This document shows positions 10,273 to 15,687 of a stretch of DNA of 20,807 nt, piece after piece. Each line of letters opens with the position of its first letter. Within the stretch, counting starts at the first letter, position 1. The DNA lies in the IMG/VR virus record IMGVR_UViG_3300049218_000009, positions 1 to 20,807 of that record. One strand, 5' to 3'. Below the pieces are notes generated by a model that worked only from the letters and a program-made list of their open reading frames with translations, had not been told where the DNA came from and searched no databases. A program made the translations under genes and the position numbers. The stretch is from a virus.

Positions 10273-10851
10273 TTATGGTGTGAAAAATGCAGATGTAGAA
10301 ACTCTCGCCAATTGCCCGGGCGGCCCGATGGAACACACAAGCCACGGTGTAGGCTCGGCATTGTCGGTTGGCCCGGAGACGGCCGAGCCGTCAACCAATG
10401 AAGCATATACGGTGTTGCCTGGGATTGCGCCCCCGGCGAACCGTAACCAAAAATTACCGCGCCCGTGCAAAGTCACGGCGAGCCCGGGCCGTACGCGCAA
10501 CACGGGCGGCGATACCGAGTAGTCGATAAATTCCCACGTAGACGATGCTTGCGGGCCTGCAAGGCTGCGCGGGCCGCCCACTACGCCGCCGTTCGTGGGA
10601 TTGATTGAACGGTAAGGGATCACGATACCGAGACGGTCGGGTGCCGCGAGACGCGTATTATTGACGACGCCCGATTGACTCAGCCAACCGAATCGACCTT
10701 GTATTGTGCCGGGCTTGTTCGATACGGCCGCGCCTGCGCCCGCGAGCACCGATGCGAACGGCGCGCGTATCTCAAGGTTCGTTTGTAGGGGGGTTGATGC
10801 AAAGGCGCCCTCGTAAGCCCCGACGGAGCCTAAGAGGGCGCTAGTAGTCAC
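10273..10851 (-). CDS. Second cement-like head protein (paralogue of the upstream cement protein)
   Basis: No good ATG exists. GTG 10851, 18 bases after the capsid stop, gives 192 residues; it lacks a clear Shine-Dalgarno, and TTG starts inside the capsid gene are possible. The core repeats the pattern of the cement protein at 11931-12848: APFASVLAGAGAAV, QGRFGWLSQSGVVNN, LGIVIPYR, then GLAVTLHGRGNFWLRFAGGAIPGNTVYASLVDGSAVSG. The cement protein has NPFASVLAGPG, GNFAWFGPAGQV, LGFVGRN and GDFWAKFEGGATPGQTVYADKTNGS at the same spacing. So it is a Gp24-like structural cement relative, without the beta insertion. It may bind different capsid positions or be a minor decoration. Confidence 0.68.
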   Translation of the reverse strand: MTTSALLGSVGAYEGAFASTPLQTNLEIRAPFASVLAGAGAAVSNKPGTIQGRFGWLSQSGVVNNTRLAAPDRLGIVIPYRSINPTNGGVVGGPRSLAGPQASSTWEFIDYSVSPPVLRVRPGLAVTLHGRGNFWLRFAGGAIPGNTVYASLVDGSAVSGPTDNAEPTPWLVCSIGPPGQLARVSTSAFFTP

Positions 10852-10868
10852 GTTGAGTACGGCGCGGG

Positions 10869-11903
10869 TTAGGCGCCGACCATCGCAGCGATTGCAAACG
10901 GGGCGTATATGATCGTACCCCAAGTACCTTGAGACTTTTTCTGCTCCCAAGACGAGGTCTTGGTAACAATCGCATGGGCGCGCATCTTTTCGGTGAATGC
11001 CGCCTCGCAGGTCTTTTGCCCCTCGATATTCTCGGCAATCAACTGCACGAATTCGGTGCCGCCCGCGCCGCCGCCGCCGTTCAATGCAAACTCGGGAACC
11101 GTGACAATTTTCAGGTTCGGGAAGTTCGTCTTGATCTGCGTGTAAACGTTGACGTTGTACTGATTCGTATTGTTGAAATTGACGGCATTGCCCGGGCTGA
11201 TACCCATTGTCATGGACGTTTCAGCGTCAATCAACCCGTTACCTTGCAAAATCAACTGTTGCACGAGGCGCAACACGTCGGCGTAAATCGCCGCGCCCGT
11301 GCCGCCGAACCACGACGCCGTCACGGCAATCGGGGCGGGCAATGAGGGGTCATTCGTGCCGCCGTAGTTTTGCAAACCGGCCACACCATAGAGGTATGTC
11401 GCGTTTTGGAATTTCTTCAACGTGAGCGCTGACGCCATGTTGACCTGATTCGCCTTGTCAATCTTCGCCTCGGCGGCCCGCGCAAGCTCACGCTCACCCC
11501 AACGAGTGTTTGTCTGGTAGTGGTAACTCTGACGCTGCGGGAACTGCTCGTTGCTGTTCGACATTCCGTCCTGGCTGAAATCGCCGTACGAGGCAGTCTC
11601 GCCGGTACGTTCTGCCATCAGGAACATTGCGGTATCGGAAACCCACGTGCCTTTCTTCGTCTCGCCGTAAAGCTCGGCCGCCTTCGTGGGGCTCACGAGA
11701 ACTTCGATAATCGCCGGGTCAACGTAGGTCGTGAACAGCGACGGGATGCCCGCATTGGCCGCGGTAATCAGCGTAGGCTGCGCGTCGTACCCTACCGACT
11801 TGTCGATAAGGGACATTCCGCGGGCCTCTTGCATAAGGCCGGTCATGAAATGGATACCGTATCGGCGTCCGAGGTCGGCGTGATCGATTGCAATGCGGGT
11901 CAT
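10869..11903 (-). CDS. Major capsid protein (DUF2184 family, HK97 fold)
   Basis: The 344-residue protein matches the DUF2184 major capsid family in length and pattern. It has PTLITAANAGIPSLFTTYVDPAIIEVL (43-70), a WVSDTAMFLMAERTGETASYGDFSQDG segment, then NTRWGERELARAAEAKIDKANQVNMAS, FQNATYLYGVAGLQNYGGTNDPSLP, NVYTQIKTNFPNLKIVTVPEF and the end SQGTWGTIIYAPFAIAAMVG. It would assemble into the icosahedral shell after protease processing of the prohead. The leader TAAGTTTC...ACAGGACAAGCACACATG resembles that of the upstream cement gene. The neighbours are cement proteins on both sides. The start ATG 11903 is clear. Confidence 0.93.
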   Translation of the reverse strand: MTRIAIDHADLGRRYGIHFMTGLMQEARGMSLIDKSVGYDAQPTLITAANAGIPSLFTTYVDPAIIEVLVSPTKAAELYGETKKGTWVSDTAMFLMAERTGETASYGDFSQDGMSNSNEQFPQRQSYHYQTNTRWGERELARAAEAKIDKANQVNMASALTLKKFQNATYLYGVAGLQNYGGTNDPSLPAPIAVTASWFGGTGAAIYADVLRLVQQLILQGNGLIDAETSMTMGISPGNAVNFNNTNQYNVNVYTQIKTNFPNLKIVTVPEFALNGGGGAGGTEFVQLIAENIEGQKTCEAAFTEKMRAHAIVTKTSSWEQKKSQGTWGTIIYAPFAIAAMVGA

Positions 11904-11930: not shown

Positions 11931-12848
11931 TTAGTACGTGGTGATCTTGGCGACTTCGCCATTGCCCGCGGTGTACGTGCCGCCGACAACAAACGCAGTC
12001 GCTACGGCGCCCGCGGTTGTGATCGTTCCTGATGCAATCGCAGCCTGCGCGGGCGTGATATTGTAAATACCGGCGCCGCCTGCGGTGCCCGTGACCTGTA
12101 CGCCCAATTCGGTATTTGCGGCGAGCAGTGCCGAGACGAGCGTATCGCCCGGGACGAGCGTACCCGTACCGACGGCCGAGAATGTCGCGAAGCTGGAAAA
12201 GGTCGACTGTCCGTTAGTGAACGCTGCGACGGTTGCCGCCGGGTCGCTCACGCTGTAGGTGCCTGCGCCGCCGGTCGTGCCGGTCAGCTGCGCCACAATC
12301 TTGAGACCAGCTTCGACGCCCGTTGCAGTGAACGTGTCGCCGGGCATCACGGAGCCGTTCGTAGCGGCGCCCGTAATGGTCAGCACGCCCGCAGTAATCG
12401 AACCGGCGACCGTCGCATTAGTGCCGACGAGGCCGGTTGCCGACGCAGCGGCGGGGGTCGAGGCCGCGGCAATCGGCGAGCCGTTCGTTTTGTCGGCGTA
12501 CACGGTCTGACCCGGGGTTGCGCCGCCCTCGAACTTCGCCCAAAAGTCGCCCGCGGCGAACGCGGTGACCATGAAACCGGGCGGAATCAACAGCGTTGTT
12601 TCGCCCAAAAATTGGGTAATCAAAGCCTGTTCGTTGCGGCCGACGAACCCGAGTTGATACCCGGCCACGTACGACTGCGAAACCTGACCCGCGGGGCCGA
12701 ACCACGCGAAGTTACCGACGACTATGCCGGTAGCGGGCGCCACATACTCACCGGGACCGGCAAGCACTGACGCGAACGGGTTAGTGCTTGCGAAATCACC
12801 GGCAACCCCAGGGGCTTGCAGGTTGTTGACTTTGTTCTGAAAGGGCAT
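11931..12848 (-). CDS. Structural cement protein (Gp24-like) with two inserted beta repeats
   Basis: ATG 12848, with AGGAC ten bases upstream, gives 305 residues. Residues 1-130 follow the phage cement pattern: NKVNNLQAPGVAGDFASTNPFASVLAGPGEYV, VGNFAWF, LGFVGRNEQALITQFLGE and GFMVTAFAAGDFWAKFEGGATPGQTVYADKTNGSPI. Such proteins lie on capsomers and stabilise the shell. Residues about 140-280 are two Gly/Thr-rich beta repeats (VLTITGAATNGSVMPGD...GTTGGAGTYSV, then FSAVGTGTLVPGD...GTAGGAGIYNI), and the C-terminus GAVATAFVVGG...EVAKITTY looks like the family's ending. The repeats would project outward and may decorate the head. The start leader is shared with the capsid gene. Confidence 0.83.
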   Translation of the reverse strand: MPFQNKVNNLQAPGVAGDFASTNPFASVLAGPGEYVAPATGIVVGNFAWFGPAGQVSQSYVAGYQLGFVGRNEQALITQFLGETTLLIPPGFMVTAFAAGDFWAKFEGGATPGQTVYADKTNGSPIAAASTPAAASATGLVGTNATVAGSITAGVLTITGAATNGSVMPGDTFTATGVEAGLKIVAQLTGTTGGAGTYSVSDPAATVAAFTNGQSTFSSFATFSAVGTGTLVPGDTLVSALLAANTELGVQVTGTAGGAGIYNITPAQAAIASGTITTAGAVATAFVVGGTYTAGNGEVAKITTY

Positions 12849-12886: not shown

Positions 12887-13546
12887 TTACTTGAGCCGGT
12901 TGTAACCGGGGATTACCGCGGCCATCGTCTTAACGGTTGCGGCGTCGCTTGCCATAGCCGAAGTTTGTACCTCAATTCTGTCGCGTGCGAGTTTGAACAG
13001 TACCGGATAGGCCGATGCGTCAACCCCGTCGACCGCTACGCCCAATTTCTTGAGGGCTGCGGCATAAACCTGCGCCGCGCTGTCGTACGTGACCACACCC
13101 AAGACGGGCTCAACGTCACGGCGGGCTGCGTGCAGCGCGTCGCGTGCGGTGAGGGCGCGCTTGACAACCGCGTCCATGCCCTTTTTGTCTTTGGCAGGCT
13201 CGGCGCCGCCCGCGCCCGCGTTACCGCTGGCGGATTTCTTGGGCTGCTCGTCGTCCTCGGCGTCCATATCTTCCATTTCGTCTTTGGCCTTGTCGTCCTT
13301 TTCGGGAAATTCGTCCTTGGCCTTGTCGTCCATTTCCTCGTCGTTTGTTTTTTCCGGGTCGTCGCCGTCGCACGCCTTCGCGTCCTTGGCCTTGTCCTTT
13401 TTTTCGATTTCGACCGGGCCCAAGCCGCCCTCGTCCTTGCCCTTTTTGTCAGCGGCGATAATCGCGGCCAAAATCTGAGCCTCGGTCGGCTTTGCGTCCG
13501 TGGCAATGAGGGCGGCGACTACGGAGGCGACTTTCGATGCTTTCAT
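12887..13546 (-). CDS. Acidic scaffold-like protein, the C-terminal partner of the split DUF2213 protease
   Basis: The 219-residue product has an N-terminal helical part (MKASKVASVVAALIATDAKP), then residues about 35-125 made almost only of Asp, Glu, Lys and Ala, including DDKAKDE twice, and a C-terminal domain (MDAVVKRALTARDALHAARRDVEPVLGVVTYDSAAQVYAAALKKLG...VIPGYNRLK). In related phages this charged linker and C-terminal domain follow the DUF2213 protease in one polypeptide and act as scaffold. Here the protease ends at 14147 and an HNH gene lies between. Scaffolding function is inferred from composition and position. There is no clear Shine-Dalgarno before ATG 13546 (upstream GAGTCCAAAAC). 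Confidence 0.72.
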   Translation of the reverse strand: MKASKVASVVAALIATDAKPTEAQILAAIIAADKKGKDEGGLGPVEIEKKDKAKDAKACDGDDPEKTNDEEMDDKAKDEFPEKDDKAKDEMEDMDAEDDEQPKKSASGNAGAGGAEPAKDKKGMDAVVKRALTARDALHAARRDVEPVLGVVTYDSAAQVYAAALKKLGVAVDGVDASAYPVLFKLARDRIEVQTSAMASDAATVKTMAAVIPGYNRLK

Positions 13547-13592
13547 GTTTTGGACTCGCGGGATAGTGAAAGGTAAATCACAGTTGCGCTAG

Positions 13593-13620
13593 GTTATGGT
13601 AATCGTCGGGGTAATGTCAA
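13593..13620 (-). promoter_or_regulatory. Promoter-like site TTGACA-16-CATAAC at the HNH 3' end
   Basis: On the minus strand TTGACA lies at 13620-13615 and CATAAC at 13598-13593, a 16-base spacer. It lies in the last codons of the HNH gene and points at the scaffold gene 47 bases further on. The -35 is perfect; the -10 has four of six consensus bases. Confidence 0.35.
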
Positions 13621-14160
13621 CACTCCGTCAGCCACGAGCACGTCGGGCTTTAGGAGATACGCGACCGCGCGTAAGACTCCGGGCAGATTGTCGCCTAATT
13701 TTCCTACGGCAGTGTTGCAGTCGAAGCAAAGCCAACCGCGAAAAGCCCCGGCCTCGTGGCAATGGTCTAATGCTATAGCCCTATTGCCTGGCAGTTTACG
13801 GCAGCATTCACAGTGGCCCGGCATGGGGCGTGTAGGGGCGGGCAGGCCGCTAAGTCTGCGGCGAAGCGCTTTTGTGCTTTCTAAACGGCTGTATGCTTTT
13901 TGTCTAGCTGCTATCTTGGCTCGATTGGCGGCCGAGTACTCTTTCATTTTTCGTAAATTAACGTCTCGGTTGGCTGTGTGCCGGGCCCGAGCTTTCGCTA
14001 AATATTTCTCTCGGTTAGGGCCTGTAAGTCGGCGCCTATCCCGCTCTCGATATTTTTCTGGGTTTTGCTGCCGGTATTTACGTACGTTATCCGCCGCGCA
14101 TCGTCTGCATGCACCGTATTTATTGAATTGCCCAGTATGGCCGTTTTTACAGGTTTCCAC
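13594..14160 (-). CDS. HNH endonuclease (recombination endonuclease VII-like), free-standing homing type
   Basis: GTG 14160 gives 188 residues, overlapping the protease stop by 14 bases. The N-terminus is a zinc-ribbon (C4, H8, C18, C21). A highly basic middle with repeated R-K/Y/N units follows (NPEKYRERDRRR, NREKYLAKARARH, ANRAKIAARQKAYS). Residues 116-170 are the His-Me finger core: HCECC (116-120), LDHCH (131-135) and GWLCFDCNTAVGKLGDN (143-159), matching endonuclease VII-type HNH enzymes, which cut DNA using one metal held by the H-N-H site and four zinc ligands. Such genes in phage structural operons are mobile. The last residues, DVLVADGVLTL, echo the protease end. No intron features were looked for beyond inspection. 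Confidence 0.85.
   Translation of the reverse strand: METCKNGHTGQFNKYGACRRCAADNVRKYRQQNPEKYRERDRRRLTGPNREKYLAKARARHTANRDVNLRKMKEYSAANRAKIAARQKAYSRLESTKALRRRLSGLPAPTRPMPGHCECCRKLPGNRAIALDHCHEAGAFRGWLCFDCNTAVGKLGDNLPGVLRAVAYLLKPDVLVADGVLTLPRRLP
13612..13644 (-). repeat. Direct repeat copy 2: codes DVLVADGVLTL (HNH 3' end)
   Basis: These 33 bases encode DVLVADGVLTL and match, at eight or nine of eleven residues, DVCVADSVLTL at 14186-14218. Base identity is partial, since many third positions differ, so it is an old or converged copy. The two copies lie 574 bases apart, on either side of the HNH gene. Confidence 0.6.
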
Positions 14161-14821
14161 CTTTAGATTTTACCATCGTTGACACGAGCGTCAATACGGA
14201 ATCTGCTACGCATACGTCCGGGCCAGCCCTGCCCGCTTCGACCAAACTAATGTGGTTCGCGACGATGCTCGTCATGCGCCCGTCGTACTTCACGCCCTCG
14301 GGCGTTGTTCCGGGGCTCATGTCAGGTTTGTAGTGGTACCCGCAAGACAACTCACGTTGCTTGCCGGGCGCTTCCGACGTGCCGATTGCTTCGATACCTT
14401 CGCGCGTCCATACCGTCAAATCTGCTTTGATATACGGGTACGCGAACCGAGCGTTGCTGATTGTTCCAACCGTGATGAATTGTTGGGGCGCGTCGGGATT
14501 CACGGCAACGTGTGCCATGAGCAATTGAATTCGGTCGTACGTCTTTACGGCGGCCTGCAACTCGGCGCCGTCACGATAGAGCATGTAAATTTTCGACGGG
14601 TCGAGCCCCAACGCTTCGGCGTCCGGGATTTCCGAGCCGAGATACGGGCACACATTCGCTTTCGTAATATTGCAGTCGTATACGTGCAGAATGCCGTCGA
14701 GCGTTTCCATGCGCCGGTCAAACGCAATGACGACGCGCCGCTCGTCCATAGCGCCGACCGCACAGTCGATATCTAGCTCGGCGTCGTCCATTTCGATTGA
14801 ACAGTCAGAGGGTTTGCGCAT
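14147..14821 (-). CDS. Prohead protease, DUF2213 family (N-terminal enzymatic part)
   Basis: ATG 14821 gives 224 residues. The protein shows ETLDGILHVYDCNITKANVCPYLGSEIPD near residues 40-70, then LMAHVAVNPDAPQQFITVGTISNARFAYPYIKADLTVWTREGIEAIGTS and CGYHYKPDMSPGTTPEGVKYDGRMTSIVANHISLVEAGRAGPDVCVAD. This is the DUF2213 maturation protease pattern, with a conserved H (V-A-N-H-I-S-L-V) and S-C-G-Y as the likely catalytic region. In relatives the chain continues into a scaffold domain; here it stops after 16 residues past the GPDVCVAD motif (MVKSKGGNL). It is cleaved from the scaffold by genome rearrangement. A promoter-like sequence lies directly upstream of the start. Confidence 0.85.
   Translation of the reverse strand: MRKPSDCSIEMDDAELDIDCAVGAMDERRVVIAFDRRMETLDGILHVYDCNITKANVCPYLGSEIPDAEALGLDPSKIYMLYRDGAELQAAVKTYDRIQLLMAHVAVNPDAPQQFITVGTISNARFAYPYIKADLTVWTREGIEAIGTSEAPGKQRELSCGYHYKPDMSPGTTPEGVKYDGRMTSIVANHISLVEAGRAGPDVCVADSVLTLVSTMVKSKGGNL
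14167..14194 (-). promoter_or_regulatory. Promoter-like site TTGACG-16-TAAAAT upstream of the HNH gene
   Basis: TTGACG lies at 14194-14189 and TAAAAT at 14172-14167 on the minus strand, spacer 16. Each hexamer has five of six consensus bases. The -10 ends six bases before the HNH GTG. The -35 is part of an inverted repeat TTGACGCTCGTGTCAA. Confidence 0.4.
14186..14218 (-). repeat. Direct repeat copy 1: codes DVCVADSVLTL (protease 3' end)
   Basis: The protease codons for DVCVADSVLTL have a counterpart at the 3' end of the HNH gene (13612-13644). Each copy ends with a TTGAC hexamer that starts a promoter-like sequence with a 16-base spacer. Confidence 0.6.
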
Positions 14822-14827
14822 GCCCTC

Positions 14828-14857
14828 ATTATGGCGAATTACCTAGCGCGTTGTCGA
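14828..14857 (-). promoter_or_regulatory. Promoter-like site TCGACA-18-CATAAT upstream of the protease
   Basis: TCGACA at 14857-14852 and CATAAT at 14833-14828 on the minus strand, each five of six, spacer 18. The protease ATG starts seven bases after the -10, so a transcript from it would be leaderless or nearly so. GAGGGC between them could also act as a ribosome site. Confidence 0.35.
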
Positions 14858-15687
14858 GCGGCTCGTAACATCGTCGTATTCCGCGGCGATTTCGCGCGGG
14901 CTTGCTCGATTGACTCGAACGCGGGGATAACGGCACGACTTGTGCAACGACAATTAATCAACTGCCCGGGCATCACGTATTGCTGCTCGTCGCTGTCCCA
15001 CATGCCCTGTGCGATTACGTACGGCTTTCCGCTCATAGCAACGTGCGTCGCGCGGGGCACCTTGCCGCCCGCCGAGTGTTGCCAGATTGCATGCGTGATC
15101 CCCAATTCCTCGCGCCGCGTTTTTTCTATGATCGCTTTCGCTTTGTTGTTTTGGTCGCGGGCAATCAGTGCCGCACGGTCGCGCGTGACGCCATACGTTT
15201 TCCGTAAGTCGACCGACAGCGCGTGCATGTCGGCGCCTTTCATAACCGACTGCCATACCTTGCTCTCAACGTCCTTAAGATACTGCGCGGGGATCGACTT
15301 GATGAGGTTAACCTGTTCGGCAACCACGGCTTGATAGGCCGCCGCGCTCGCGGGCGTGGGCTTGAACGAAACGGTAAACCCTGCCTCTTTCAGCGCGGCC
15401 CGTAGCTGCGTCTGAGTGATGCCGAACGATTTGCTGGCAAATTTTTTCGCAAGGTCGAGCGAGAGTTTATCAAATTTGCTAACCCATAGGCCGCCCCATT
15501 TGCGAAGCGCGGCCTTGAGCAGTAGCGATGGGTTACGAACGGTATCGTGTGCGTACTCTTTGGGCTCAATCTGCCCGTACGCGGCTAGAACGTGATGCGT
15601 CACTTGCGCTTGCATGGCGCCTATCGCCTCGTCTAGCTCGGCCCAATACCACGCATGCACGGCGGCCGACGCATGGATAGCGGGCAC
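14839..15687 (-). CDS. Phage head morphogenesis protein, MuF/SPP1 gp7-like
   Basis: GTG 15687 is chosen because AAAAGG lies nine bases upstream and the previous stop is only 14 bases before; a TTG at 15750 would overlap the preceding gene by 50 bases. The product then has 282 residues. The C-terminal half carries the MuF signature: DLRKTYGVTRDRAALIARDQNNKAKAIIEKTRREELGIT followed by HAIWQHSAGGKVPRATHVAMSGK and a GMWDSDEQQYVMPGQLINCRCTSRAVIP end, where LINCRC is diagnostic. The N-terminal part is helical (AMQAQVTHHVLAAYGQIEPKEY). Proteins of this family are minor head proteins packaged in small numbers inside the capsid or at the portal. It sits right after the accessory cassette. Confidence 0.86.
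   Translation of the reverse strand: MPAIHASAAVHAWYWAELDEAIGAMQAQVTHHVLAAYGQIEPKEYAHDTVRNPSLLLKAALRKWGGLWVSKFDKLSLDLAKKFASKSFGITQTQLRAALKEAGFTVSFKPTPASAAAYQAVVAEQVNLIKSIPAQYLKDVESKVWQSVMKGADMHALSVDLRKTYGVTRDRAALIARDQNNKAKAIIEKTRREELGITHAIWQHSAGGKVPRATHVAMSGKPYVIAQGMWDSDEQQYVMPGQLINCRCTSRAVIPAFESIEQARAKSPRNTTMLRAARQRAR

Follow-up and report, generated by a model that had tools for sequence, protein, structure and literature searches.

The locus described here lies in a window of 20,807 nucleotides (IMGVR_UViG_3300049218_000009, positions 1 to 20,807), which was compared with a set of related loci, denoted by L-numbers. All four genes of interest, encoding a MuF-like protein, a DUF2213 protease, an HNH endonuclease and a scaffold protein, are carried in that order on the minus strand. 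As read from the comparisons presented below, the features are:

15750-14839, minus strand: MuF-like head gene (PF04233) with its native end intact; the empty site for the cassette of L013 and L015
14821-14147, minus strand: DUF2213 head maturation protease (PF09979, E 5e-39; phrog_2229), the invaded gene
14218-14147, minus strand: candidate replacement protease end, DVCVADSVLTLVSTMVKSKGGNL and stop, putatively cassette-borne (alignments with L002/L003; 55/78 nt common to L022)
14194-14167, minus strand: promoter-like site in the replacement end, TTGACG-16-TAAAAT, its second hexamer preceded by TG (10/12 consensus matches)
14160-13594, minus strand: HNH ORF of the Endonuclease VII type with a GTG start (PF02945, Endonuclease_7, E 4e-15)
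14160-13645, minus strand: HNH proper, residues 1-172 (PF02945; the L022 homologue is 72% identical and the alignment ends at KP172)
13644-13594, minus strand: putative displaced native protease 3′ end, DVLVADGVLTLPRRLP and stop, resembling native tails of cassette-free relatives
13620-13591, minus strand: promoter-like element before the scaffold gene, TTGACA and, 24 nt further, TAA, within the displaced native end
13546-12887, minus strand: scaffold gene, corresponding to positions 207-426 (the C-terminal half) of phrog_2229 and separate in cassette-free relatives

The family phrog_2229 is a one-chain family of 428 positions. The window is mosaic between 10869 and 17112, the nearest relatives being L002/L003 for the protease, L007/L022/L080 for the scaffold and L083/L075 for the capsid. 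The genes at 10273-10950 and 11931-12848, which flank the major capsid gene, look like a paralogous pair, in that the opposite-strand ORF end of one matches the other (E 2e-7); the product of 11931-12848 is a member of a structural cement/minor capsid family.

The protease terminates in GPDVCVADSVLTLVSTMVKSKGGNL and the HNH protein in KPDVLVADGVLTLPRRLP. The presence of the same motif at both ends, noted in the original prediction, was borne out: the two 33-nt copies are identical at 20 of 33 positions, a level equalled in 5 of 100,000 base shuffles, and retain 9 of 11 residues. Two of the 11 codons are identical, seven differ synonymously and two non-synonymously. Because most of the codon differences are synonymous, the copies are alike mainly in protein. 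The proposal that the insertion rebuilds its landing site stands, with the motif re-encoded in other codons. Residues V203, V205 and D207 of the motif show little or no variation among 27 relatives. An AF2 model of the protease (27 rows, mean pLDDT 83.7) was confident to about residue 200 and intermediate for residues 201-210, with values mostly below 50 after 209; the new protease tail is probably disordered. The HNH ORF starts ahead of the new protease stop, giving an overlap of 14 nt. It lacks a stop codon where its domain ends and reads in frame into the displaced native end. The replacement end also contains an inverted repeat, TTGAC-N6-GTCAA (14178-14194), overlapping the first promoter hexamer and found in L022 as well, which could be an operator or a chance occurrence.

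Among the loci retrieved with the protease, twelve close relatives show both genes and have no HNH at the junction (L002, L003, L004, L006-L010, L075, L078, L080 and L083, with L004 a near-copy of L003). In all 12, the protease and the scaffold are two genes. The HNH is therefore not what separates them, and the relatives with naturally separate genes that would speak against a split were indeed found. The one-chain arrangement ascribed to relatives holds for phrog_2229 and for more distant relatives, such as L016 and L086, but not for these 12. The same site thus exists with the cassette, in the window and L022, and without it, in the 12 relatives. The native protease tails of the latter (DVMVADSVLHIARRLA, DVMVADGMLHIARRLI, DVHVADSVLQIPTQLT, DVMVADAALHIVRPLS and similar, each followed by a stop) have the form of the end of the HNH protein in the window. 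Two native ends are altered: L006 has a longer tail, and in L007 (4620-4716) the protease stops early, immediately after DVCVSE, and shares a TGC codon with the cassette tails. This early stop might be the scar of a cassette loss or an independent change. In L002 (3100-3690), the MuF-like gene is separated from the protease by a further Endonuclease VII-type HNH; with the MuF gene of the window as query, no displaced MuF end was detected downstream of this HNH.

Comparison with the native tails reversed one part of the original prediction, in which the HNH supplied the restored copy of the motif: it is the copy on the HNH that represents the native protease end, and the copy on the protease that is foreign. 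In alignments with L002/L003, the protease of the window departs from the native ends just after GACGT, at about 14213, and on this basis it is a hybrid of a native body, nearest to L002/L003, and a foreign end. Over 33 nt, the displaced end matches six of nine native ends at 21-24 positions and those of L078, L080 and L083 at 17-18; with the spacer included, the best match is L003, with 74 identities.

The clearest view of the two ends came from L022, which carries, at the same site, an HNH that is 72% identical to that of the window and likewise overlaps the protease by 14 nt. Its cassette-free sisters are L078 and L080. In aligned blocks, L022 and L078 are 83.7-87.0% identical in nucleotides upstream of the cassette and 87.5% downstream. 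After the L022 HNH, the stretch from the native tail through the spacer is identical to L078 at 84 of 86 nt and to L080 at 82 of 86. The tail of the L022 protease, in contrast, matches native L078 at only 17 of 33 nt and the tail in the window at 23 of 33 (55 of 78 over the whole end). Thus, the upstream tail is foreign and the downstream tail native, since the downstream copy is that of the sisters and the protease's own tail is not. The displaced copy in L022 has lost the motif core, being 7 bp shorter than that in the window, and is not in frame, so that the HNH ORF ends immediately.

Between the window and L022, the codons for GPDVCVADS differ at six nucleotides, all synonymous, while the next 16 codons show 44% protein identity; the rebuilt protease motif is evidently under constraint. 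Of the 12 bases in the hexamers TTGACR and TAAAAT, 11 are conserved (p 0.007, in a segment with 25 of 42 positions conserved). For the HNH pair, pS is 0.72 and pN 0.23, with dS close to saturation, and the nuclease gene is evidently under purifying selection. It has diverged about as much as the flanking genes have, and an old vertical inheritance followed by losses would explain this as well as transfer would. In the protease tree, the window groups with L002/L003 and L022 with L078/L080/L083; the patchy presence of the cassette fits either two gains or one old gain followed by losses. L022 was the only other carrier found beside the window in searches for a third with the HNH protein, an HNH alignment and two junction patterns.

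At the second promoter-like site in the window, TTGACA begins at 13620 and the CATAAC hexamer shares bases with the stop codon of the HNH (TAA, 13596-13594). A promoter scan of the window did not report this TTGACA/CATAAC site, which is weaker than the usual consensus. An element in which TAA lies 23-26 nt after TTGCAA, TTGCAT or TTGACA precedes the scaffold gene at 11 of 11 native junctions examined (L004 being excluded as a near-copy) and in both displaced copies, those of the window and L022. The 75,174 bases of those relatives contain 13 such elements on that strand, and the junctions account for 11 of these. Coding alone cannot account for it, because L007 and L075 hold it in other reading frames than the remaining relatives. 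The claim that a promoter-like element is kept at the junction was thereby upheld, and promoter function is inferred from these sequence patterns.

The arrangement recurs not only at the same site in L022 but also at the MuF gene of L013 and L015, with another HNH. These two loci are 98-99.8% identical in aligned blocks, and the cassette (L013:2040-2690; L015:2720-3370) comprises a MuF-like gene end, an Endonuclease VII-type HNH and a displaced native MuF end. The MuF gene ends in AIIPAFETIEQATAKSPRNTPLLNAARNRAR and overlaps the HNH (PF02945) by 11 nt; a second MuF end, AVIPAFETIEQARAKSPRNTEYLNQARSRAK, follows the HNH out of frame with it. In L013, the two copies have 24 of 31 residues and 55 of 93 nt in common, with 18 synonymous and seven non-synonymous codon differences. 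Over 48 nt, the MuF end of the window matches the downstream copy at 39 positions and the upstream copy at 31, the pattern that a native downstream copy would give. Nine other relatives did not clearly tell the two copies apart at this end. The L013 HNH is a separate, distantly related nuclease, since it matches that of the window at only 31% over residues 71-177 of the latter. No close cassette-free sister of L013 was found, and its case is therefore less certain than that of L022.

A scan of 2038 ORF ends for duplicated ends (E up to 0.01; L001 and 11 repeat loci left out) gave cassette-like matches in L013/L015 and the window. The others were an HNH pair in L023/L024 and scattered matches in L007, L041, L047, L060, L091 and the other strand of the window; that in L047 was rejected, its neighbourhood reading as paralogous genes. 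In both L023 and L024 (3097-4423 in each), two HNH ORFs of the same family lie about 800 bp apart. Among 290 ORF ends of 16 phage records with Endonuclease VII genes, a sample chosen from 70 listed matches (H61-H130), there were 14 matches below E 0.2, none of them with this layout, and among 472 ORF ends of 27 further HNH loci there were 10 below E 0.02, none recognised as such a case. The absence of a further case in the 16 sampled records indicates that the layout is not general to the Endonuclease VII family.

We consider it likely, from these comparisons, that the window holds a mobile cassette of about 570 bp near the protease 3′ end, consisting of a replacement end, a promoter-like site and the HNH ORF, with the native end pushed downstream. 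The cassette would enter at the conserved DVxVAD motif near the 3′ end of the protease gene, and the replacement end would re-encode this motif with other codons and add a new tail. In cassette-free genomes, the HNH would cut the native site, and repair from a carrier would copy the cassette into the cut genome. The altered spelling would spare the carrier from self-cutting and block recombination between the copies; the cassette could in this way home into an essential gene and rescue it at once. The displaced native end is probably kept because it holds the promoter-like element before the scaffold gene.

We considered the possibility that the locus is instead a mosaic junction, formed when a protease-HNH phage recombined with a phage carrying the native end, so that the two ends are present by accident and have no replacement function. 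The window alone, being mosaic, could be such a junction: its protease is nearest to L002/L003 while the scaffold and capsid proteins are nearer to other relatives, and nuclease genes sit at boundaries of inter-phage exchange, as described in the part of a published study considered here (PMC10448857). L022, however, needs an insertion rather than one crossover, because both of its flanks match cassette-free sisters. The rebuilding and conservation of the motif and the same layout at a second gene, in L013/L015, also argue against an accidental junction, which we regard as unlikely. A duplication of some 33 bp of target upon HNH insertion, with the copies diverging in place, would explain the direct-repeat layout and the 20 of 33 identical nucleotides. 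This is less probable still, since in L022 the downstream copy is nearly that of the sisters and the upstream copy is not, but resembles the upstream copy of the window instead (23/33; 55/78 over the whole end).

Because the HNH ORF lies between two parts of one gene's end, an intron, intein or split-gene device could be imagined that excises the HNH region at the RNA or protein level and rejoins the native end. The protease, however, still has a motif and stop of its own, in L022 the displaced end is without motif core and frame, and a search of 13400-14900 of the window returned no match to an Rfam intron family up to E 1, including any group I or II catalytic RNA spanning the insert. We judge such a device highly improbable, and the self-splicing raised in the original prediction found no support. 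Least probable of all is that prediction's central claim, in which the HNH split a fused protease-scaffold gene; phrog_2229 and the distant relatives are fused, but the 12 close cassette-free relatives have two genes already.

The mobile cassette with a replacement end has a known parallel in fungal mitochondria, where mobile-ORF hybrids occur in Glomus atp6, atp9, cox2 and nad3 and in Allomyces atp6, the latter cited as the first case in the part of the source considered here (PMC3630166). There, as in the window, a gene body is followed by an inserted foreign C-terminal end, an endonuclease ORF and the displaced native end, and the copies are alike in protein (91% in atp6) and not in DNA (63.5%), according to the same sections (PMC3630166). 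The corresponding parts were found here: a foreign C-terminal end in frame with the protease gene, the L022 end being unlike that of its sisters and that of the window like L022's; an endonuclease ORF (PF02945) adjoining the inserted end in the window, L022 and L013; and a displaced native end downstream of the nuclease in the window, L022 and L013/L015. We therefore regard the cassette, on sequence grounds, as the phage counterpart of the fungal hybrids. It differs in residing in phage head genes rather than in a mitochondrion, in having an Endonuclease VII-type HNH instead of the LAGLIDADG or GIY-YIG nucleases named in the fungal account (PMC3630166), and in a displaced end that keeps a promoter-like element.

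Among phages, the free-standing homing endonucleases of T4 (mobE, mobA and seg) are similarly small nuclease ORFs at gene borders near essential genes, and their starts overlap the upstream gene, for example by 11-24 bp, as in the window (PMC2988022). The sections of that review considered here raise the problem of displaced promoters and gene splitting but, unlike the situation in the window, describe no replacement gene end with a displaced native end (PMC2988022). T4 gene 60 likewise combines a homing endonuclease insertion with extra sequence that possibly protects the target from cutting; according to the portion of the source considered, translation bypasses the extra sequence, whereas in the window the putatively protected end is recoded and read normally (PMC5009743). 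No phage case in which a replacement 3′ end has displaced the native one was recognised in the literature searched, which lay mostly outside the subscription journals.

By analogy, the cassette of the window resembles a natural home-and-rescue drive. Home-and-rescue drives carry a recoded rescue end. In the HomeR drive, the nuclease element enters an essential gene by homing and at the same time rescues that gene, as in our model; HomeR is engineered, CRISPR-based and works in Drosophila, whereas the cassette is natural and its homing inferred (PMC7968924). A broader proposal, which we hold tentatively and with slightly more doubt than belief, is that Endonuclease VII-type cassettes act as natural home-and-rescue drives that cut essential head genes at their conserved 3′ ends, insert and provide a re-spelled end resistant to cutting, the displaced end driving the downstream genes, and that different nucleases of the family have settled at different neighbouring genes. 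The small number of carriers, two of the protease cassette and two near-identical ones of the MuF cassette, counts against the mobile-cassette model itself, and the altered spelling could simply reflect a distant donor.

The arrangement suggests that an essential phage gene can be invaded by a selfish nuclease and yet not be inactivated, the nuclease bringing a replacement end and leaving a promoter-like element in place. It also serves as a warning that gene ends adjoining nuclease genes may be foreign. If the model is correct, these cassettes would represent a naturally occurring equivalent of engineered rescue drives and a phage parallel to a phenomenon known from organelles.
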